Positions 15,405 through 29,791 of a DNA stretch of 39,835 nt are shown piece after piece. Numbering within the stretch: the first letter of the stretch is position 1; each line of letters begins with the position of its first letter. Position numbers and translations under genes: made by a program. The stretch is from the NCBI GenBank assembly GCA_020444275.1, contig JAHLLG010000010.1:1-39835 (forward strand), written 5' to 3'. The DNA is from Bacteroidota bacterium (GTDB lineage: Bacteria > Bacteroidota > Bacteroidia > Bacteroidales > UBA12077). The notes under the pieces were generated by a model. The model was not told where the DNA came from. It saw nothing but the letters and a program-made list of their open reading frames with translations, and ran no database searches.

Positions 15405-16523
15405 TTAAATTTTGAAAAATGAAATTAAATCGGTTAATGTTTTTGATTTTGACGTAAGCTCTTCGGCACTTGAAGCTAACTCCTCGGCTGATGCGGCATT
15501 TTGCTGTGTTACACTATTGAGTTGCTGAACAGCTTCGTTCACCTGTTCCGATCCGGATTTTTGCTCAATGGTAGCTGCAGAAATCTCCTGAATCAGATCA
15601 GAAGTTCTCTTTATTTCGGGTAAGTTTGTATTCATAAGTTCTCGTGCTTTTTCAGATATTTCAGCTCCTTTTTGCGAAACTGCAATTATCTCGTTAGCTG
15701 CATTTCGGCTTCGTTCAGCTAATCGCCTTACTTCGGCAGCAACAACAGCAAATCCTTTCCCCTGTTCTCCGGCACGGGCTGCTTCAACTGCAGCATTTAA
15801 GGCTAACAGGTTTGTTTGAAAAGCAATATCATTAATAATGGTTATCTTTTCCGCAATTTCTTTCATTGAATCCAGTGCAACATTGGTTGATTCGTTTCCT
15901 TCCTGAATACTTTTGTTTGTGGTAACAGCAATTTTTTCTGTTTGCTTTGAATTATCTGCATTCATTTGTATACTGGAAACTATTTGTTGCATAGTAGAAG
16001 AAATTTCTTCCAATGAAGAAGCCTGTTCGTTAGCAGCATTTGAAAGCTGCACAGAACTTGAACTGAGCTGATCTCCCGTACTTTCAATTTCATCGGCTGC
16101 CACTGCGATACTTTCAATAACCTCTTTAAACTTGTTTGTTAAACTTTGTATACTTTCTGTAAGTATACCCAATTCATTATTTTGACCAATGTAATCTTTG
16201 TTGACTTTGACATTAAGATTTCCTTTGGCCAGTTCCTGAAGTGCTTTAATGGAATCATCCAATGGCCTTCGAACTTCTTTTGCCGTTCTCCAGAAAAAAT
16301 AGATAAATACTGGTAAGCCGATAATTATTACAAAGTATGTTGGAAAAGTTTCGGGATATGAGCTATTTAAATTTGCCAGTGCATCAAGAATAGAGAGCGT
16401 AATAACCCAGTAAGCAGTTATTCTAAATAATATCGATCCTTTAAAGAAAAATCTTATGGTTAAAATACCAATGGGCGGTCCTATAAGTAATGGAACAATT
16501 ACTTCAAGTAGTTCTTTTGACAT
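15405..16523 (-). CDS. Methyl-accepting chemotaxis protein lacking a periplasmic sensor domain
   Basis: This is a chemoreceptor-type signal transducer of 372 aa. The N-terminal 78 residues are almost entirely hydrophobic with about three membrane segments (near 8-26, 32-50 and 60-78) and no room for a periplasmic ligand domain. A HAMP-like linker follows (about 78-135, [30 protein letters not shown]). The signalling helical hairpin has the classic tip [20 protein letters not shown] (233-252) and [18 protein letters not shown]. There is no CheR-docking NWETF-like tail. No che genes are in the window, so it is an orphan receptor. It may sense membrane state or energy through its transmembrane helices. 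It is divergent from the padR operon. Confidence 0.93.
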
Positions 16524-16679: not shown

Positions 16680-16711
16680 TTTGTTATATATAAGAAACTT
16701 ATATATATTTG
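16680..16711 (+). promoter_or_regulatory. padR promoter with embedded palindromic operator
   Basis: TTTG (16680-16683), a 20-base spacer and TATATTTG (16704-16711) form a full match to the Bacteroidota -33/-7 promoter. The spacer contains most of a perfect palindrome, TATATATAAG (16685-16694), AAA, CTTATATATA (16698-16707), which runs into the -7 box. A dimeric repressor bound here would block sigma binding, so autoregulation by PadR is the simplest reading. The -7 box ends only 4 bases before the padR ATG, which predicts a leaderless or nearly leaderless mRNA. A second TATATTTG at 16676-16683 could serve as an alternative -7 box. Confidence 0.6.
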
Positions 16712-16715
16712 TAAT

Positions 16716-17060
16716 ATGATATCAAAAGATTTACTTAAAGGATCATTAAAGTCAATTATTTTAAAATTATTGGCTGAGAATGGTAAAATGTATGGTTATG
16801 AAATAACACAGAGAGTTTCTGAACTTTCAAGCGGTAAGATAAAACTTACCTATGGTGCACTTTATCCGATACTTCATAAGTTAGAAAATGATGGTATTGT
16901 AAAAACAGAATCAGAAGTAGTAAATAATCGTAACAGAATTTACTACGATCTTACACCAAAGGGCAACAGTTTTGCTACGGAGAAAATTAAAGAACTCGAA
17001 GAATTTATTGAAACCATGGGGATTTTTCTCAAACCGAATTTAGGTTTAAATTATGTATGA
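16716..17060 (+). CDS. PadR family transcriptional regulator
   Basis: This is a small winged-helix dimeric repressor of 114 aa. The core matches PadR: DLLKGSLKSIILKLLAENG, then MYGYEITQRV, then LTYGALYPILHKLENDGIV with the recognition helix, and NRNRIYYDLTPKG in the wing. The start is ATG 16716. The open frame continues upstream to 16617, but conserved PadR sequence begins at MISKDLLKG. Its 3' end overlaps the next gene by 8 bases (ATGTATGA), indicating translational coupling. PadR genes coupled to a membrane protein with an N-terminal HAAS-like domain are a known one-component signalling arrangement. The likely targets are its own promoter and this operon. Confidence 0.93.
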   Translation: MISKDLLKGSLKSIILKLLAENGKMYGYEITQRVSELSSGKIKLTYGALYPILHKLENDGIVKTESEVVNNRNRIYYDLTPKGNSFATEKIKELEEFIETMGIFLKPNLGLNYV

Positions 17061-18513
17061 GTTAACTCAGGAGCAATTACTAACCGTTAATGAACTGGTT
17101 AGCGATTCTCAGATTACGTATTCGCATCTGCCGGATGATTTAATGGATCATATTTGTTGTGATATTGAATCAGAAATGTCTGTAGGTTTATCATTTAATA
17201 AAGCATTGGAAAGGGTACAATGTAAGTTTGGTGATTCCGGATTACAAAAAATCCAGGAGGATACCATTTTATTAATCGATCAAAAATACAGATTTATGAA
17301 AACAACTATGAAAATTTTTGGCAATGTATCCTTAGCGTTGGTAGGGATCGGAACCATTTTTAAAATCTTTCACTGGCCGGGAGCCTCGATCGGGTTAACG
17401 TTGGGGTTTGTTTTATTAGCGTTAATTTTTTATCCGGCTACGATTTTAGCGAGTTACAGAAAAAATGGACGAAAGAATCTAATTCTGCATCTTATGGCTA
17501 TTGTTGGCGGTATGGCTGTAATCTTAGGCATTCTATTTAAATTCCAACACTGGCCTGGTGGTGGAATGATATTAACCGGAGGTTGGATTACCTTAATTCT
17601 AATTTTTCTTCCAATTTGGTTAATTATGTATTCTATTCAAAATAAAGGTAAGCAAGAGACTAGAATTTATGCAATAGGTGTTACCGGATTGATTGTATTT
17701 AATCTGGGAACGCTTTTTAAATTTCAACACTGGCCAGGAGCTTCTGTATTTCTTATTGTGGGAGCCATAATCATTGGAACCATTTTTTTGCCGATTTATG
17801 CTAAATATCTATATGATAGGCATCAACATATAAATATCAGATTTATTTATTTAGTAATTATCATATCATTTTTCATTTTATTTGGAACACTTACAAACCT
17901 GAATTTAGAAAAAAACTTATTTGATAGTATCTCTAAAACTGATTATTATGCAAGGGTAGAATCAGGTTACTATAAAGCAGAAAATCAACGCATTATAGAA
18001 AATGTATTATTTTCAGATTCAGAAATAAGCAATAAAGCAGAAATCATAAGTACTCGGGCAGATAGTCTTTGTAATCTTATTTATAATATAAAAGGAGAGT
18101 TATTGCTTAAATCAATAGGTGTGGATAAACCTTACCTGAATAAGTATATAGAAAATATTGCGTTAATTCCTGAAAAGGGTAACTGGATACTAGTAGATCA
18201 AATCTTTTTTGGTAATCAGAATGACGGATATGCCAATCTGTTAAAAAATGGATTAAAAGACTATGAACAGCTTATTATGCAAGAAGTTGATAATGACCCG
18301 GTGCTTGGTAAGCAGTTAAATGAACTCTTTTCTCTTAAAGATATTTCGTCTTATGGGTTTTATAAAACATGGGAATACAGAATGTTTAAGCGCAATTTAA
18401 TGTACTTGTCTATAACGCAACTAACTAACATTGAGCGTGATATTCGATTAGCCGAAAGTCTAATATACAACTACTATGCGGAGAAGTTAGATATGAAAGA
18501 TTCTGAATTGTAA
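17053..18513 (+). CDS. HAAS-like domain + three GldL-like hairpins + GldM-like segment
   Basis: This 486-aa membrane protein has an unusual architecture. Residues 1-80 resemble the PadR-associated HAAS-like cytoplasmic domain (LPDDLMDHICCDIESEMSVG, ALERVQCKFG). Three 60-residue modules follow, each a helical hairpin: FKIFHWPGAS (103-112), FKFQHWPGGG (162-171) and FKFQHWPGAS (222-231). In each, F(L/Y)P ends exactly 21 residues after the histidine (P128, P187, P247). The FK-x-x-H motif matches GldL. A seventh membrane helix (264-283) runs into LTNLNLEKNLFD, resembling the GldM junction LNVSKEVLD. The last 200 residues should be periplasmic. Cytoplasmic loops are basic (YRKNGRKN, NKGKQETR). None of the hairpins has an acidic residue between HWPG and FLP. 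I know of no description of this fusion. Function is inferred as a PadR-linked membrane sensor. Confidence 0.8.
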   Translation: MYELTQEQLLTVNELVSDSQITYSHLPDDLMDHICCDIESEMSVGLSFNKALERVQCKFGDSGLQKIQEDTILLIDQKYRFMKTTMKIFGNVSLALVGIGTIFKIFHWPGASIGLTLGFVLLALIFYPATILASYRKNGRKNLILHLMAIVGGMAVILGILFKFQHWPGGGMILTGGWITLILIFLPIWLIMYSIQNKGKQETRIYAIGVTGLIVFNLGTLFKFQHWPGASVFLIVGAIIIGTIFLPIYAKYLYDRHQHINIRFIYLVIIISFFILFGTLTNLNLEKNLFDSISKTDYYARVESGYYKAENQRIIENVLFSDSEISNKAEIISTRADSLCNLIYNIKGELLLKSIGVDKPYLNKYIENIALIPEKGNWILVDQIFFGNQNDGYANLLKNGLKDYEQLIMQEVDNDPVLGKQLNELFSLKDISSYGFYKTWEYRMFKRNLMYLSITQLTNIERDIRLAESLIYNYYAEKLDMKDSEL

Positions 18514-18533
18514 AATTTAAAGAAGAGAAAACA

Positions 18534-19556
18534 ATGAAAAAATCAATATATATATCAGGAATATTTACAACTAATCTTTTACTTATAGGTTGTATATTTA
18601 AAATAAATCACTGGCCGGGCGCCGGAGTAGCATTAACTTTATCACTTTTATTTTTGAGTTTTTGGTTTTTACCAACAGCTTTACTTCATCATTATAAAAG
18701 AAACGATCATAAACATAAAAAATGGTTATATATAACTGCCTTTATAAGTTTCTTTATCATGTTTATAGCTGCTTTATTTAAAATACAGCATTGGACTGGA
18801 GCCAGCTTTCTATTAATGATAGCAATACCTATTCCGTTTGTGCTGTTTTTGCCGGTATATATCTACCATTCTGCAAAAGATAAGCAGCAGTCGTCTCTTT
18901 ATTTTACTGCAGTAATTTTAGGTCTTATTTTTATAGCTGTTTACAGTGGATTATTAAACTTAAATGTTAGTAAAAATGTATTGGATCATGGTGTATTGTT
19001 AATCAAGAGCAATGAAAAAACCATTGATTACTACGAGAATAATATAAAATCCGCAATAACTGCTAAATCATCCAGTACGAGTAACATTGATGATATCATC
19101 AGTAAAAGTGATTTGATTTGTTCTACAATTCATTCAGCAAAACAGGATTTATTAAAATTTACAGAAAATAGTCATCTCAGTACAGATTTTGGTCAACATG
19201 ATTTTTTTGTAAATAACATAAATAACATGGATTCGCGTAACGCAGTTCACTACATACTTTTTTGGAAGGATGATGCCACTATTCCAAAACTCTATGAGGA
19301 AATGGTAGCATATAAATCTTTTCTAACTAGTTTAGAACTAAAAGATGAAACTAAAAAAGCTATTCAGTTGATGTATAATTTAGAAGATGCTGAACTGCAT
19401 GGTGAAAGATACCCTTGGACGGAGCGGGAGTTTTCATCAGATTATCTGATCTTTGCGTTAGAGTCACTATCGCGATGGGAAAAAAATGTCAGGTTTACTG
19501 AAAATTTAATTATTCAGGAGCTAGTTAATAAATCTGAAGATAATACTATTTTATAA
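18534..19556 (+). CDS. Two GldL-like hairpins + GldM-like segment (paralogue of the preceding gene)
   Basis: This 340-aa paralogue of the preceding protein lacks the HAAS-like domain and one hairpin. The modules are FKINHWPGAG (22-31, FLP ending at 47) and FKIQHWTGAS (82-91, FLP ending at 107). They have the same 60-residue period and 21-residue H-to-P spacing. A fifth helix (about 122-140) leads into LLNLNVSKNVLD, close to GldM LNVSKEVLD. The periplasmic parts of the two proteins align weakly: IISTRADSLCNLIYNIKGEL with IISKSDLICSTIHSAKQDL, and IERDIRLAESLI with WEKNVRFTENLI. The gene starts 20 bases after the preceding stop with a purine-rich AGAAGAG upstream of its ATG. A hairpin terminator follows. 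The pair probably forms a heteromeric membrane complex. Confidence 0.8.
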   Translation: MKKSIYISGIFTTNLLLIGCIFKINHWPGAGVALTLSLLFLSFWFLPTALLHHYKRNDHKHKKWLYITAFISFFIMFIAALFKIQHWTGASFLLMIAIPIPFVLFLPVYIYHSAKDKQQSSLYFTAVILGLIFIAVYSGLLNLNVSKNVLDHGVLLIKSNEKTIDYYENNIKSAITAKSSSTSNIDDIISKSDLICSTIHSAKQDLLKFTENSHLSTDFGQHDFFVNNINNMDSRNAVHYILFWKDDATIPKLYEEMVAYKSFLTSLELKDETKKAIQLMYNLEDAELHGERYPWTEREFSSDYLIFALESLSRWEKNVRFTENLIIQELVNKSEDNTIL

Positions 19557-19653: not shown

Positions 19654-20442
19654 TTAATATCCGGTTTTTCGTCCGGAGTGTTCGCGTAGCATTTTAAATC
19701 GGCGGAATCCCATTTGATAATATTTATCTATATCAAAATCTTTTACACCATGAAGTTTGCGTGGTTTTATTTTATGCATACACCATTTATTATTTAGTAC
19801 AAACGAGAAATAATAGTATATGTATCGGAAAACTTTATTAGTACTGCCTAACACTTTATTTTTTCTTGATATATATTCATAACATATTCTATTTGGGCAG
19901 GTTAAGGCACATCCTGCATTTCCAAACAAAGTGATTCTGTCTTTCTGATCAATTTGCTCCAACAGTTTTAAGTTATTGTTCACATTCATTGGAAGTACAA
20001 TCGTATCATAAGTTTTTAACGCTTCATCAATTTTTTCCAATGAATCAATATCTTTTAAGATGCTGGCTTCAATTTTATATAATGGAAAATCTTTTCTAAT
20101 CCAACCAACAAGTTCGTCATTTGTAATAATCAAAGAATTACCTTTCTGATGATATTTCTCGAATAATGGAAGAAACTCTTCGTATTCGAATCTGGAAACA
20201 TAGTGATTGGTAAAAGGAATTCGGATACCAATGTTATGATCCTGTAAAAATTTATAGTCATTATCAGAAAGTTGAGTGTGCATAAATGGCCTGCCACTAT
20301 ACAACGTTGATTTCTCAACAAAACCAAAAAGGCTATCGATCTTAGTTAGCGGAATGTTTGGAAAAAACTTATGAAGATAGTCTTTTACAGGTTGATTTGG
20401 TTTTTTGCCTCGTGCCGAAATCGTATATATTGTATTATCCAT
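19654..20442 (-). CDS. Conserved protein with four-cysteine cluster, possibly U32-like
   Basis: This 262-aa soluble protein has no clearly recognised family. The pattern of alternating strands and helices (GIRIPFTNHYVS, SLIITNDELVGWI, YDTIVLPMNVNNN, DRITLFGNAGCAL) suggests a barrel. The cysteines C178, C182 and C187 (GCALTCPNRIC) plus C221 could bind an iron-sulfur cluster, recalling the four cysteines of U32-family proteins such as UbiU/UbiV. That link is weak and from memory. The C-terminus is basic (KWCMHKIKPRKLHG, FRRFKMLREHSGRK). It is encoded 27 bases downstream of a radical SAM gene, so the two are probably co-transcribed and may act together. Confidence 0.6.
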   Translation of the reverse strand: MDNTIYTISARGKKPNQPVKDYLHKFFPNIPLTKIDSLFGFVEKSTLYSGRPFMHTQLSDNDYKFLQDHNIGIRIPFTNHYVSRFEYEEFLPLFEKYHQKGNSLIITNDELVGWIRKDFPLYKIEASILKDIDSLEKIDEALKTYDTIVLPMNVNNNLKLLEQIDQKDRITLFGNAGCALTCPNRICYEYISRKNKVLGSTNKVFRYIYYYFSFVLNNKWCMHKIKPRKLHGVKDFDIDKYYQMGFRRFKMLREHSGRKTGY

Positions 20443-24817: not shown

Positions 24818-25189
24818 TTAATTTTTAGTTTTTGAATTGCCCAGGCTGCGCAATAACATCCTTTCAATTTTTCCGGTTGTTTTGACAAAATCATCCTGAT
24901 CATTACTATTTAGCAAATGCACGTAAATTATATTACGATCTTCTGATAAATCAACACTTAACGATCCGGGTGTCATACTTATTAGGTTGAATAGTAAAAT
25001 AATATGCCACGATTTATCACTTTGCGGTTGGTATTCAATAAGGGTTTCATTTTCACCACGATACCCTTTAACAACAAGCCATGCTACAATCCATCCCGAG
25101 TTGATTACTTTGAAGGTAAAGTAAACAAATAAAATGGTTAAGTTAACTAACCTGAGCGAAAACGCTATGATTGATCTTACTATTTTCAT
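24818..25189 (-). CDS. mrpE: Mrp antiporter subunit MrpE/MnhE
   Basis: This 123-aa subunit has an N-terminal hydrophobic region (ILFVYFTFKVINSGWIVAWLV). A soluble part follows, carrying LISMTPGSLSVDLSEDRNIIYVHLL, the family signature TPGTL-like motif. It is somewhat shorter than Bacillus MrpE, with one N-terminal helix apparently missing. Its ATG overlaps the mrpD stop by 4 bases. Confidence 0.9.
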   Translation of the reverse strand: MKIVRSIIAFSLRLVNLTILFVYFTFKVINSGWIVAWLVVKGYRGENETLIEYQPQSDKSWHIILLFNLISMTPGSLSVDLSEDRNIIYVHLLNSNDQDDFVKTTGKIERMLLRSLGNSKTKN

Positions 25190-26682
25190 CCTAAAACAAA
25201 ATTGATATACTTTTGATTATTAAGCAAATCGGTTGCTGCCGTTTCGCAAAATTCTGCTATTGGTTTTGCCCAAACCCCCATTACAATAATGGATAATGCT
25301 AATATTATAGATGCGGTTATCATATACCTGTATGGTAAACCATTTGATTTTATTCTTTGTTCGCTATCGTTTTTTTCATTCTTGGTGTTTTTCCAGAATA
25401 CTTCAATCCAGATTTTTGTCATGGAAAAGAGTGTAAAAAGTCCTACAAATAGCGCAACCATGGCTACAATTATCTGGTTACTTTCAATACCTGCTTTAAT
25501 AATTAGATATTTTCCTGCAAAACCACTTAATGGAGGAAGTCCGGCTAAACTAAAAGCCGAAATAAAAAATAGTATTCCCCACAATGTATGTTTATTAAAC
25601 ATATCTCCCAGGTCTTTTAAACTTAATGTATTTCTTTCGCGATGCACCCAGCCGGCAACCAGAAATGCATTGGTTTTTGAAAGCATATTGTGTCCTAAGA
25701 AAAATATGGCTGCTGCAAGTCCGGATATAGTATAAAAAGCAAGTCCAATAATAACATAACCAACCTGACTAATAATATGAAATGATAGGATTTTCCTGAA
25801 ATCGAACTGCGATGTTGCAGTTATTACACCAATTACCATGGATAATATTCCCATCCATAAAATGATTGGATTCCAGAAGTAATCATAGTGATGCAAAAAC
25901 AACGTGTAAATTCTTATTAGAGAATAAATTCCAACTTTAGTTAGCAATCCGGCAAAAAGGGCAGAGACTGCCGGTGGCGGAGTATGGTACGATGCCGGCA
26001 ACCAGAAAAAGAACGGGAAAAGTGCTCCTTTTATGGCAAAGCCTACCAGTAATAAAATGAGTGAAGGTTCAAATAAGCTGGGAAAATCGCCAATTCGAGA
26101 GAACTTCAATGCTAAATCGGCAAGGTTTAAACTTCCCATTTTACCATAGAGGATTCCTATTCCGGCAACAAAGAAAAAGGATGATATTAAATTTAATATC
26201 AGGTATTTAATAGATCCTTCGAGCTGTGCTTTTTCTCCTCCAAAACTAATAAGGATAAACGAACTCATGAGCATAACTTCGAACCAAACGTACAGATTAA
26301 AAATATCGCCTGCAATAAAGCTTCCATTTACACCCATTAAGATACCGTAGGTAAACAGAAAGTAATTATTTTTGAGTCTCTCTTTGTCAATTGACTGAAT
26401 AGAGTATAAAGTAACGGCCAAAAACACAATGGCCGAAATAAAGATCATAAAGGCACTAAACCGATCGGCTACTAGCGTTATACCATAAGGTGCAGGCCAC
26501 GAACCCATTTGGGTTTTTAGCATGCCTGCGTTATGAACGATTTTAAGAATATAAAAGGCTAAAGCAAAATTAGTTAATCCTAAAATCAGCGACAGTGCAT
26601 TTTTTATTCTGACATGGTGTATAAACAGTGCCAAAATAATAAATGTAAAAGGAACTATGATCAATAACGGAAGTATGCTCAT
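25186..26682 (-). CDS. mrpD: Mrp antiporter subunit MrpD/MnhD
   Basis: This 498-aa proton-translocating subunit is homologous to the antiporter-like subunits of complex I (NuoM/NuoN). The helix-5 glutamate is E135 (YVWFEVMLMS). The pump lysines are K218 (VGFAIKGALFPFFFWLP) and K249 (LFAGLLTKVGIYSLIR). About 14 membrane helices are apparent. It overlaps mrpC by 4 bases (ATGA). Confidence 0.95.
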   Translation of the reverse strand: MSILPLLIIVPFTFIILALFIHHVRIKNALSLILGLTNFALAFYILKIVHNAGMLKTQMGSWPAPYGITLVADRFSAFMIFISAIVFLAVTLYSIQSIDKERLKNNYFLFTYGILMGVNGSFIAGDIFNLYVWFEVMLMSSFILISFGGEKAQLEGSIKYLILNLISSFFFVAGIGILYGKMGSLNLADLALKFSRIGDFPSLFEPSLILLLVGFAIKGALFPFFFWLPASYHTPPPAVSALFAGLLTKVGIYSLIRIYTLFLHHYDYFWNPIILWMGILSMVIGVITATSQFDFRKILSFHIISQVGYVIIGLAFYTISGLAAAIFFLGHNMLSKTNAFLVAGWVHRERNTLSLKDLGDMFNKHTLWGILFFISAFSLAGLPPLSGFAGKYLIIKAGIESNQIIVAMVALFVGLFTLFSMTKIWIEVFWKNTKNEKNDSEQRIKSNGLPYRYMITASIILALSIIVMGVWAKPIAEFCETAATDLLNNQKYINFVLG

Positions 26683-27032
26683 TTTTGGTCTGTTTTACTA
26701 AGTTGATCTAAATCATGAGTTTCTGTTACTTCGAAATACCTGTATTTTAAGGCAAGTATATAGGCTGCAATACCTAAACTGATAACGATGGCAGTAAGAA
26801 TTAAGGCTTGGGGCAAAGGATCGCTAATGGTAGCAAGATCAACTGTTTCTTTCCCTTCTGCGATAAATGCTTCGCCACTTCGTTTTATTCCGCCTGCTAA
26901 AAATATAATCAGGTTGGTAGCATTGGCCAGTACAAATATTCCAAGTATTACTTTTACGATACTACGCCGCAATACCAGGTAAACACCACCTGCATATAGT
27001 ATTCCGATAAAAATTGCTAATATTAATTCCAT
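26679..27032 (-). CDS. mrpC: Mrp antiporter subunit MrpC/MnhC
   Basis: This 117-aa subunit is homologous to NuoK, with three helices. The segments [22 protein letters not shown] and [20 protein letters not shown] (read in parts) are diagnostic. A soluble loop, [18 protein letters not shown], lies between helices 2 and 3. It overlaps mrpB by 10 bases and mrpD by 4, showing tight coupling. Confidence 0.93.
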
Positions 27033-27463
27033 TTTAACACCTCCATTATACTAATTACAATAGTTAAAATAACACCAATAACAACTGCATAAACTCCTGT
27101 GTCGAAAATCAGTGGTGTACCGGCATGCAAAGTTCCTAAAACCGGAACATCAGCTTTTATCCATAATCCTGTTAACATTTCTGTTGAGAATAAGGTTGGC
27201 AGTAAGGCAGCAACTAAAACTAATAATAATCCAATACCAATAAAAGATTGCGGTTTTATTTTAATGACTTTCTGTAATGAATCCGTTCCAAAAATAATTG
27301 CATAAAAAATAAATCCGGTTGATGCAATGATCCCTCCGATAAAACCACCGCCAGGGTTATTGTGTCCACGAAGTAACAAATAAATAGAAAAGATAACCAT
27401 TACTCGCATAAAAAGGCCCACGATCTTTTCTAATATGATATTTCTTAAACTTCTATTATTCAT
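27023..27463 (-). CDS. mrpB: Mrp antiporter subunit MrpB/MnhB
   Basis: This 146-aa, four-helix subunit matches the MnhB domain. The conserved segment [21 protein letters not shown] is clear, followed by [19 protein letters not shown] near the C-terminus. It starts directly after the mrpA stop with no intervening base. It is a separate polypeptide here, not fused to MrpA. Confidence 0.93.
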
Positions 27464-29791
27464 CTATTTACTTTGTTTTTTAACGGTAAACCTAAATAAA
27501 CTAAACACACCAACTGCAGCCAGAGTTAGCACAGTGATTTCACCAAGTGTGTCCAGTGCTCTAAAATCAACAAGGATCACATTTACAATGTTTCGTCCGT
27601 GTGCTTGCAGATAACTGTTCTCGGCAAAAAAGCTGGAAATCGGCTCATAATTATTAAGCGCCCTGCTATGCAATACAACAATGGTAACTCCGGCACCTAC
27701 AACTAATGATATGATTATATCTCTGATACGCGATCTTTTAGTTGATAAATTTGCAAATTTTGGCAGGTAATAAATAACCATGACAAAAAGAACCATAATT
27801 ACGGTTTCAGCCAGAAATTGCGTAATGGCCAAATCAACTGCACCATATAACAGGAATAATAAACCTATTCCGTATCCCACAACACCCATCGCAAGTATGG
27901 CTGATAATCGCGACATGGAAAATACGGCAAACAGCAATGCCATGGTTGATATAATTAAAAGAATTACGATGTTAAACCGGATATCCGAAAATCCGTTAAT
28001 CGGCACTAATTCCCTAAAGTTCCAGTTTATTTGAAAGCTTAAGATGATTAAAGTTACCACAAAAAATGTCATTAAATAGAAGCGATGATATCCGTGCTGG
28101 ATACGCTGCGTATTTTTTCCGGCAATTCGTAAATATAAATTCATTACAGTCATAAAAATGGTCGGAAGATGATATATATCGAACCATTCAATGGTTTTTT
28201 TAATGAAACGGGTAACCGGTTTGCGGAGAACAAAGATTAAAACACCTAACAGAATTGCAAAAATACTGAGTACTAAAACCTCATTAAATCCATGCCATAG
28301 AAGCAGATGTACATCTTTGATCTGATTTTTTGTTACAAAAAGTGCATTGGCAATCATTTTGTTTAATCCACCTGGGAACAGACCAAGAAATAATCCTGCC
28401 AGGGCTAATACTCCCGGACCAAGAATAAAATACCACGGTAGTTGTTTTTCAGTGTATTTAGCAGGAATTGCCGGCTTTTTACTCTTGTTATAGAATATTT
28501 CTACAAAAACCGTAAGCGATACAGCAACCATCATGATATTTGCTCCAACTCCAAGCGGAAGTATAATCCACGATAATCCGGGGAGTTGTATTTTGGCTAC
28601 ATAAATAAGTTCCTTTCCAACAAAACCAAGCATAGGTGGTAATCCTGCCATGGATATTAATGCCAGCACGGCAAAAATGGTTGTCAAAGGTAAAGGCTTC
28701 CAGAGTTTTGATAGTACGGTTATATCTCTTGTCCCGGTGCTTTTATCAATAATACCTGCAACCATAAATAATCCGCCTTTATACAGTCCATGCACAATAA
28801 AAAACACCAGCGATGCTTCTATGGAAAGTGGGGTTCCTATACCAATCAATAAAACCATGGTTCCCAAAGCACTTATGGTTGTAAAAGCTAATATTCGTTT
28901 CAGATCTTTTTGGCCCATGGAGAAATAAGCACCCAAAAACATGGTGATAACTCCTGACAGAATTAATGAATATTTCCAAATTGGTGTTCCTCCTAGTAAA
29001 GGTTGGATTCTTAAAAGTAAATATATTCCAGCATTTACCATAGTAGCAGAATGCAGGTATGCACTTACCGGAGTAGGTGCCTGCATTGCTCCCGGCAACC
29101 AAAAATGGAATGGAAACTGAGCAGATTTAGTTAATACAGCGATTAATACTAGGATAAAAACTAATGTGTATTGTGGGTGCTCTGTTAATGAAATGCCTTG
29201 TTCAATAATCTTACTGATTTCATAAGTACCTGTAATATTTCCAATAAGAATGGCAGCAAATAACAAACACAAACCGCCAAATCCGGTTATTAATAAGGAT
29301 TGCAATGCTGCTTGCCGCGATTTTTCTAAATGATGATCAAATCCAATGAGTAAAAAGGAGGTCACGCTGGTAAGTTCCCAGAAAATAAATAGTGCCATTA
29401 AATTATCTGAAAATACAAGCCCTGTCATGGCGGCCATAAATAACATCAGGTAGGTAAAAAAATGTGCCTGCCGCGAGTACTTTTTCATATACCATGATGC
29501 ATACAACACCACTAAAAATCCAATACCCGATATTAATAATCCAAAAATAAGGCTTAATCCATCAATGCGGAACGGAAAACTTATATTTTCCAATAGTGAA
29601 AAGTTGGTTGGAAATATTTTGGTTGCTTTGATATCTAAGTCGCCAAGGGTTGAGAATAATAGAACGAATATACCTAGCGGGACTAATGAAAGCAGCCAAC
29701 CCAGACGTTGTTTAAGCAAAGGATACAAAACGCTAACAAGTATACCCGAAATAAATAAAAGTCCTATTAATAAAGGTAAATATTCGCTCAT
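27464..29791 (-). CDS. mrpA: Mrp antiporter subunit MrpA/MnhA
   Basis: This 775-aa subunit is the largest of the Mrp cation/proton antiporter and is homologous to NuoL with extra C-terminal helices. Pump residues visible are E139 (ALFIFWELTSVTSF), K222 (AVLTKSAQFPFHFWLPGAM) and H247 (SAYLHSATMVNAGIY). The C-terminal part carries the DUF4040-like segment (GVVGYGIGLLFLLYGAVDLA, ITQFLAETVIMVLFVMVIYY) and ends with LVDFRALDTLGEITVLTLAA, which is MrpA-specific. As first gene of mrpABCDEFG it sets the operon start. The operon exports Na+ (or other cations) in exchange for protons across the inner membrane. Confidence 0.96.
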   Translation of the reverse strand: MSEYLPLLIGLLFISGILVSVLYPLLKQRLGWLLSLVPLGIFVLLFSTLGDLDIKATKIFPTNFSLLENISFPFRIDGLSLIFGLLISGIGFLVVLYASWYMKKYSRQAHFFTYLMLFMAAMTGLVFSDNLMALFIFWELTSVTSFLLIGFDHHLEKSRQAALQSLLITGFGGLCLLFAAILIGNITGTYEISKIIEQGISLTEHPQYTLVFILVLIAVLTKSAQFPFHFWLPGAMQAPTPVSAYLHSATMVNAGIYLLLRIQPLLGGTPIWKYSLILSGVITMFLGAYFSMGQKDLKRILAFTTISALGTMVLLIGIGTPLSIEASLVFFIVHGLYKGGLFMVAGIIDKSTGTRDITVLSKLWKPLPLTTIFAVLALISMAGLPPMLGFVGKELIYVAKIQLPGLSWIILPLGVGANIMMVAVSLTVFVEIFYNKSKKPAIPAKYTEKQLPWYFILGPGVLALAGLFLGLFPGGLNKMIANALFVTKNQIKDVHLLLWHGFNEVLVLSIFAILLGVLIFVLRKPVTRFIKKTIEWFDIYHLPTIFMTVMNLYLRIAGKNTQRIQHGYHRFYLMTFFVVTLIILSFQINWNFRELVPINGFSDIRFNIVILLIISTMALLFAVFSMSRLSAILAMGVVGYGIGLLFLLYGAVDLAITQFLAETVIMVLFVMVIYYLPKFANLSTKRSRIRDIIISLVVGAGVTIVVLHSRALNNYEPISSFFAENSYLQAHGRNIVNVILVDFRALDTLGEITVLTLAAVGVFSLFRFTVKKQSK

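Follow-up and report, generated by a model that had tools for sequence, protein, structure and literature searches.

The window analysed here is one whole contig of 39,835 nucleotides (JAHLLG010000010.1) from the 4.22 Mb genome of a member of the Bacteroidota (assembly GCA_020444275.1; Bacteroidales, UBA12077), and at 16716-19556 it carries three consecutive plus-strand genes: padR, coding for a PadR-type repressor of 114 amino acids (aa), and two genes for membrane proteins that we call A (486 aa) and B (340 aa). Our proposal is that the three genes code for an autoregulated membrane signal transducer with a disarmed GldLM core, a reading to which we assign a probability of about 0.58. The padR and A genes overlap by 8 bases, A and B lie 20 bases apart, and a gene on the minus strand ends at 19654, beyond B. 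The start of padR at 16716 was set by homology, and its product matches PF03551 with 73.6 bits against a gathering score of 27 bits, which places it in the PadR family. The genes and their predicted parts are:

16716..17060 (+), padR, winged-helix repressor, 114 aa (PF03551, 1.3e-20)
17053..18513 (+), protein A, 486 aa: N-terminal PadR-linked domain, three GldL hairpins, GldM-like helix and D1 domain
17053..17292 (+), residues 1-80 of A, three-helix cytoplasmic domain with a DHxCC motif (AlphaFold2 helices 6-18, 26-43, 48-75)
17149..17160 (+), HxCC motif of A: His33, Cys35, Cys36 (conservation among A sequences)
17305..17466 (+), A GldL hairpin 1, FKIFHWPG (Pfam, motif, AlphaFold2 helices)
17470..17640 (+), A GldL hairpin 2, FKFQHWPG (Pfam, motif, AlphaFold2 helices)
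17650..17823 (+), A GldL hairpin 3, FKFQHWPG (Pfam, motif, AlphaFold2 helices)
17836..17898 (+), A GldM-like transmembrane helix, LNL..K junction at its end (sequence, AlphaFold2)
17905..18507 (+), A GldM D1-like periplasmic domain (GldM_1st 4.2e-8, Foldseek)
18534..19556 (+), protein B, 340 aa: two GldL hairpins, GldM-like helix and D1 domain
18540..18701 (+), B GldL hairpin 1, FKINHWPG (Pfam, motif, AlphaFold2)
18711..18878 (+), B GldL hairpin 2, FKIQHWTG (Pfam, motif, AlphaFold2)
18894..18959 (+), B GldM-like transmembrane helix, LNLNVSKNVLD junction at its end (sequence, AlphaFold2)
18966..19550 (+), B GldM D1-like periplasmic domain (GldM_1st 1.1e-7, Foldseek)

Relation of A and B to GldL and GldM

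The motif FKxxHW(P/T)G occurs at residues 103, 162 and 222 of A and at residues 22 and 82 of B, and the two proteins are paralogues (BLASTP E 6e-32 to 1e-27, varying with settings). Both exceed the curated Pfam cut-offs for GldL_N (A, 2.3e-17 over three stretches; B, 3.7e-11 over two) and for GldM_1st (A, 4.2e-8; B, 1.1e-7). The NCBIfam equivalog models for GldL and GldM match A and B at E 3.3e-10 to 7.8e-4, with scores under their cut-offs of 68.3 bits for GldL (A 40.3, B 19.4) and 180 bits for GldM (A 33.1, B 27.2). Family profiles were built from 36 A and 42 B sequences, and the profile search of the PDB returned the GldM chains of solved structures at 1.1e-18 for A and 5.2e-17 for B, together with the GldL chains at 1.6e-5 and 1.8e-5, respectively. 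AlphaFold2 models of the single chains reach a mean predicted local distance difference score (pLDDT) of 86.4 for A and 87.3 for B, with predicted template modelling scores (pTM) of 0.57 and 0.73; A has seven membrane helices and B has five. In Foldseek, the model of A finds 7sau_A with its best E of 1.9e-6 and reaches its top TM-score by target length, 0.84 at 2.1 Å, on the PorM chain 7sat_B (E 2.6e-3), while B has a best E of 1.1e-4 and a TM-score by target length of 0.76 on 7sau_B (E 1.9e-4).

Relatives of the two proteins, cited below by the L numbers of their loci, spread to both sides of these values: GldM_1st is stronger in L044 (8e-22) and L051 (5.5e-23), it is not matched by Pfam in some others such as L053 and L132, and among 28 sequences from loci with a single hairpin gene it is found at 1e-3 in 10, against 27 for GldL_N. 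Short hydrophobic hairpins are able to score through composition, and a chance likeness among hydrophobic repeats might be suspected on that ground. This reading is refuted by the D1 matches, which lie beyond the membrane and exceed curated cut-offs, by the PDB profile hit at 1.1e-18 and by the fold match to PorM, so that we regard its likelihood as negligible. Judged from sequence and predicted structure, the hairpins are GldL-derived and the tails GldM-derived, fused and multiplied within a PadR operon. A preliminary description of this DNA had already read two paralogous proteins of this make-up from the letters alone, and each part of that reading has held: BLASTP and Pfam agree on the paralogy and the fusion, GldL_N and the GldL-chain profiles on the hairpins, and GldM_1st, the PDB profiles and the fold matches on the last helix and periplasmic domain. 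The profile searches that it proposed thus recovered a relation to both GldL and GldM.

For the topology we used the hairpins of L057-L135, the 79 best loci out of 499 confirmed A matches, a set in which two-gene loci are over-represented (L039, L041, L042, L044 and L053 repeat contigs of this set and are counted once). Lysine and arginine have a density of 0.006 in the loop that follows the motif lysine, against 0.221 in the stretches between hairpins. On this pattern the FKxxHWPG turns and the last domain are predicted to lie outside and the N-terminus inside, the same arrangement as that of GldL and GldM, and the contrast in density puts the N-terminus of A on the cytoplasmic side, where PadR is. 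A tree of the GldM-like part, made by a quick method and with the three-hairpin one-gene sequences L094 and L103 labelled A, unites canonical GldM in one group (support 97) and needs one change for B, two for A and four for the one-gene sequences; its deep forks are poorly supported (24).

Loss of the proton glutamate

According to extracts from PMC8986121, the glutamate in the second transmembrane helix (TMH2) of GldL, E49 in F. johnsoniae, shows strict conservation across GldL homologs, and secretion of SprB requires it. The same extracts report that the periplasmic conformation of GldM is altered by the proton-motive force and by GldL, so the parent machine already couples the state of the membrane to a periplasmic shape. 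In the canonical GldL of the window's genome, this glutamate lies 19 residues past the motif F, and among canonical GldL from 30 given loci it has the same offset in 19 of the 22 that were parsed; of the other three, L185 has it behind a short insertion, and in L201 and L203 the parse fell on the wrong place. Tested as an ungapped offset from the motif, the TMH2 glutamate is absent from all five hairpins of the window, and an acidic residue is present at this offset in only one of 302 family hairpins and absent from 301. Widening the test to anywhere within offsets 9-27 finds an acidic residue in 14 of the 302, seven of these being hairpin 2 of A, and none in 288. With the proton glutamate missing, A-B would be no proton motor of the GldL type.

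A functioning proton-driven 5:2 motor, that is, a covalent version of GldLM, would fit the fold homology and the count of three plus two hairpins with one plus one tail, and the 14 hairpins with some acidic residue, half of them hairpin 2 of A, could be cited for it. Against it stand the loss of the glutamate from every hairpin of the window and nearly all of the family, the 288 hairpins free of acidic residues across the wider span, and the reduced make-up of the chains, which keep only D1 of GldM and no cytoplasmic tail of GldL, with D1 lost as well in three pairs. The missing TMH2 glutamate comes close to refuting this motor, and we consider it very improbable.

Hairpin counts and the pairing of A with B

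A hairpin hidden Markov model (HMM), trained on 163 motif-matching segments from the same proteins, counts three hairpins in A and two in B at all 44 two-gene loci among the best 79 (B is broken in L076, and A is cut at its start in L100 and L112). The count rises to 49 of 49 two-gene loci when the window is added together with L040, L043, L047 and L052, which lie on other contigs and came from an order-level search with B (the B of L052 runs off its contig). The make-up of GldLM is given as 5:2 in extracts from PMC9389320, and PDB entries such as 7sau and 7sat hold five GldL and two GldM chains; three plus two hairpins with one GldM-like tail each reproduce this count. A ends outside the membrane and B starts inside; with the GldM-like part ending on the outer side, one simple chain could not hold both units, which would explain the presence of two genes.

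The D1 domain, scored by tail length, has been lost from both proteins in L043, L047 and L099 and kept in both in 44 pairs, with no case of a single loss; L076, with its broken B, and L052, whose B is cut by the contig end, are left out of this count (Fisher p 6e-5, ignoring shared ancestry). Pfam likewise matches no GldM_1st in A of those three loci. The joint loss suggests that the tails of A and B act as a pair, and we infer that the two proteins most likely work as one complex.

Beside the 44 two-gene loci, the best 79 comprise 32 loci with one hairpin gene and three others, of which L119 is broken at a contig end and L127 and L128 have additional hairpin genes. The single gene codes for two hairpins in 27 of the 32 and for three in five, of which L075 and L098 are cut off by their contig ends, L089, an A that lacks a B, precedes a TolC gene, and L094 and L103 are solitary. 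Further one-gene variants have a single hairpin (L140, L142) or three hairpins without a tail (L054). A class-level search with the B profile gave, among its 30 best loci, an N-terminal domain with two hairpins in 25 (PadR in the flank in 23), 3+2 pairs in two, one being the window and the other lying on a contig equal in length to that of L066, and no N-terminal domain in three. Because one-gene forms, mostly 2+1, are thus commoner in the class-wide search, a 5:2 assembly stays conjectural, and the one-gene form, which as a dimer would be 4:2, and L089 both count against a strict 5:2 rule. A bolder version, which we consider less likely than not, is that A and B form a single GldLM-like complex of exactly 5:2: the two chains would hard-wire five wheel subunits and two axle subunits, the proton glutamate would have been removed, and a cytoplasmic HxCC domain controlling a repressor would be attached to the wheel. 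A transmembrane gene switch would in this case have been made from a rotary motor.

Two further loci, L260 and L262, code for a solitary fused GldL-GldM protein without the PadR-linked domain, beside a gene whose product by eye resembles an outer membrane protein of the PorP/SprF type.

The PadR-linked domain of A

Residues 1-80 of A are modelled by AlphaFold2 as three helices and contain the DHxCC motif. A profile of this domain found matches in 29 of 395 genomes, with a PadR open reading frame (ORF) at 26 of the 30 loci fetched, the window included. Its partners are membrane proteins of about 230 aa, often in tandem, MacB/FtsX-type permeases and the hairpin proteins. The A-domain set and the wider PadR-linked set match at 99.8%, a value that is built in because the first set served to find the second. 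The preliminary description had seen here a PadR-associated, HAAS-like domain; the link to PadR stands on the 26 loci, and assignment to HAAS by sequence does not, with no signal for membership from Pfam or hhalign. Across 30 members of the domain, searched in Pfam at E up to 10, any one family appears in two at most, and HAAS (PF22564) is not among the 25 shown of 27. A conserved GxP kink in helix 3 belongs to the HAAS features described in extracts from PMC11237479, and no conserved GxP was seen by eye in the consensus sequence. We therefore describe the domain as a PadR-linked module that appears HAAS-like in place and in modelled shape and is undetected as HAAS by sequence.

The HxCC motif is present in 36 of 36 A sequences from two-gene loci and in 25 of 28 one-gene sequences, as compared with one of 26 sequences in the wider PadR-linked set, that one (L139) being a hairpin protein; the hairpin proteins L140 and L142 miss its second cysteine. 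In sum, a cytosolic HxCC is close to invariant among the hairpin proteins, and none was seen among those PadR-linked proteins without hairpins that were examined. Tandem arrays of proteins of about 220-235 aa carry the same DH-type PadR-linked domain (e.g., L149, L150, L152, L157 and L161), and the two that were scanned (L149, L143) have no Pfam match at 0.01.

A dyad over the padR promoter

Upstream of padR, a perfect inverted repeat overlaps a promoter element of the Bacteroidota -7 type, whose consensus is TAnnTTTG:

16687..16705 (+), putative PadR operator, perfect dyad TATATAAG-AAA-CTTATATA (inverted repeat 16685-16694/16698-16707, 100%)
16704..16711 (+), promoter -7 element TATATTTG, overlapped by the dyad (read in the sequence)

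The dyad consensus TAYATAAGNNNCTTATRTA, picked from the same upstream regions on which it was scored, is found with up to three mismatches ahead of padR in 61 of 66 loci, compared with 17 of 660 shuffles. Among the 61 dyads, 22 overlap a TAnnTTTG box in the register of the window and 27 have a box ending no more than 6 bases upstream. The window's site is the sole copy without mismatch in its own genome, which suggests autoregulation, with PadR repressing its own operon through this predicted operator.

Thirteen other sites in that genome have up to two mismatches; eight fall within ORFs, and the five outside have no -7 box in the window's register. The sole site with one mismatch lies in a 595-aa ORF, which we take to be lepA, and seven of the 12 two-mismatch sites are inside ORFs of at least 100 aa; the only one of the 12 with a -7 box in the window's register also falls within an ORF. 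Allowing three mismatches gives 151 matches per strand against 270 in a reversed control, and a regulon reading of the dyad accordingly finds no signal in this genome beyond the operon's own promoter. With no second convincing operator, the system, if it is a sensor, may control only itself.

The -7-like box ends 4 bases ahead of the padR start codon, so near that the padR message may be leaderless, and many relatives have the same 10 bases between dyad and start.

Distribution and neighbouring genes

The best 79 loci all come from Bacteroidota, and 74 of them have a PadR ORF on the same strand, overlapping A in 54, within 60 bases in 17 and farther away in three (starts were called mechanically). 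Of the five without PadR, four start less than 195 bases from the end of the stored locus, and the fifth, L100, has a truncated A. A neighbourhood survey, which the preliminary description had suggested, therefore shows the combination of PadR and hairpins to recur. In the order-level search, padR, the N-terminal domain and hairpins occur together in at least 16 of 149 genomes, that of the window included (20 stretches examined), with no match in one genome of the same genus; in the phylum-wide sample of 395 genomes, the N-terminal domain is paired with hairpins in only five, again including that of the window. The operon type is taxonomically broad yet patchy in Bacteroidota.

The same fused core also occurs with another kind of output. 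A 737-aa protein of the window's genome (L038:5489-7702; C7:73488-75701) combines two hairpin motifs, GldM_1st (3.4e-20) and SpoIIE (1.6e-17), with GldL_N at 22.1 bits, slightly below the cut-off. Seven further long proteins from other genomes have two hairpins each by the hairpin HMM, and all six scanned of the seven fetched (L278, L279, L281, L282, L283 and L285) contain GldM_1st and SpoIIE. In L058, a hairpin-SpoIIE protein adjoins the padR operon on the opposite strand.

A co-directional TolC-type gene follows the system in nine of the best 79 loci (L072, L076, L078, L079, L086, L088, L089, L095 and L112). Five of these, L076, L079, L086, L088 and L089, hold a whole TolC-MacA-ABC-MacB set (Pfam check on L079), and in the other four the stored stretch stops at TolC. 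No dyad with up to two mismatches was found before the TolC genes.

In the window itself, a gene for a methyl-accepting chemotaxis-type protein is divergent from padR (15405-16523, minus strand; MCPsignal 2.2e-36), and Mrp/Mbh-type cation antiporter genes lie about 5.6 kb downstream (25186-29791, minus strand).

Proposed mechanism and alternatives

In the working model that we favor, PadR bound to the dyad over its own promoter would repress padR, A and B together. A and B would sit in the inner membrane, each with its GldL hairpins, one GldM-like helix and one D1 domain, and their glutamate-less core would act as a passive or strain-sensitive coupler rather than as a proton motor. The paired D1 domains, or else the membrane bundle, may sense a change in the envelope and relay it to the cytoplasmic domain at the N-terminus of A; this domain would bind or release PadR and thereby set the output of the operon, a step modelled on the proposed HAAS-PadR dyad. 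That A and B sense a state and signal to PadR is our best inference, because the PadR-adjacent domain recurs in several unrelated membrane settings and the fused core is joined to SpoIIE outputs.

Several points weigh against this model. The signal, the contact of A with PadR and that of A with B are postulates of the model; the structural models are of single chains, with a pTM of only 0.57 for A; the A and B of the window are divergent and sit on long end branches in the tree; and L089 has A without B. The N-terminal domain of the window matches no Pfam family at E up to 10, and hhalign relates it to 15 Bacteroidota HAAS domains with a probability of 0.35%. The genome has no second convincing operator among the 13 other sites with up to two mismatches, and the AT-rich dyad is unexceptional as a single strand, 47 of 200 shuffles folding equally well, so that its support comes from conservation.

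Some of these observations would suit a different division of labor, in which A-B is a membrane machine or structural complex (e.g., for envelope repair or exporter support), PadR sets its dose through a ligand of its own, as do the PadRs of membrane-protein operons in Listeria, and the N-terminal domain of A is a feedback brake. The sole perfect operator of the genome sits at the operon itself, the Listeria lltR-lmo0600(DUF1700)-lmo0601 operon rises in an lltR mutant by apparent relief of auto-repression (extracts from PMC6624303), and the nine loci with a same-direction TolC-type gene would also fit. The SpoIIE outputs borne by the fused core, which suggest sensing, and the recurrence of the PadR-linked domain on unrelated membrane proteins speak against such a dosage role, which we judge unlikely. 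The TolC neighbors could instead indicate that the operon senses envelope or antimicrobial stress and turns on efflux of the MacAB-TolC type where it is adjacent, nine loci having the TolC-type gene and five the full efflux set. Within the span of the stored flanks, neither the window nor any of the other 70 loci has such a gene beside the system, and a second operator before the efflux genes was sought and not found at up to two mismatches; an efflux switch thus seems quite improbable to us, and the autoregulated transducer remains the reading that we prefer.

Significance and comparison with known systems

If the proposal is true, 5:2 membrane motors can be disarmed and redeployed as signal transducers, nature provides a concatenated version that allows a direct test of ring stoichiometry, and Bacteroidota gain a further class of membrane signalling, both PadR-linked and SpoIIE-linked, that spans a broad range of taxa and seems to be undescribed. 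As the preliminary description had supposed, the PadR-linked GldL-GldM fusion operon is seemingly undescribed: we found no account of a PadR-GldL-GldM system in the open-licence PMC literature, a search that leaves subscription papers and preprints outside. Four known systems come near to it.

(i) The GldLM/PorLM motor shares the FKxxH two-helix hairpins of GldL, the GldM helix with its LNxS-type junction and D1, with homology in both profile and fold. A and B differ from it in being fused and multiplied in one chain, in having no TMH2 glutamate and in belonging to a PadR operon; they carry GldM_1st only, ending after it where GldM runs from D1 to D4, and they are without the cytoplasmic tail of GldL. 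A canonical gldL and, by sequence and position, a gldM are present elsewhere in the same genome.

(ii) HAAS-PadR dyads have been proposed as alternatives to two-component systems, with several membrane partners named (extracts from PMC11237479). They share with A an N-terminal three-helix domain on a multi-transmembrane protein beside a stand-alone PadR, whereas the domain of A is undetected as HAAS and a GldL/GldM sensor part is not among the partners named in those extracts.

(iii) The Listeria LltR operon likewise joins a PadR to a membrane protein and a third gene and is apparently autorepressed: in extracts from PMC6624303, lltR-lmo0600-lmo0601 is up about 100- to 150-fold in an lltR mutant, in the authors' view most likely because auto-repression is relieved. 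Its proteins are of the DUF1700 and DUF4097 types, and the extracts name no GldL or GldM parts.

(iv) The GldL-GldM-SpoIIE fusions share two GldL-type hairpins and GldM_1st, followed by a signalling output. Their output is a SpoIIE phosphatase on the same chain, in place of the PadR-linked domain that A carries at its N-terminus.

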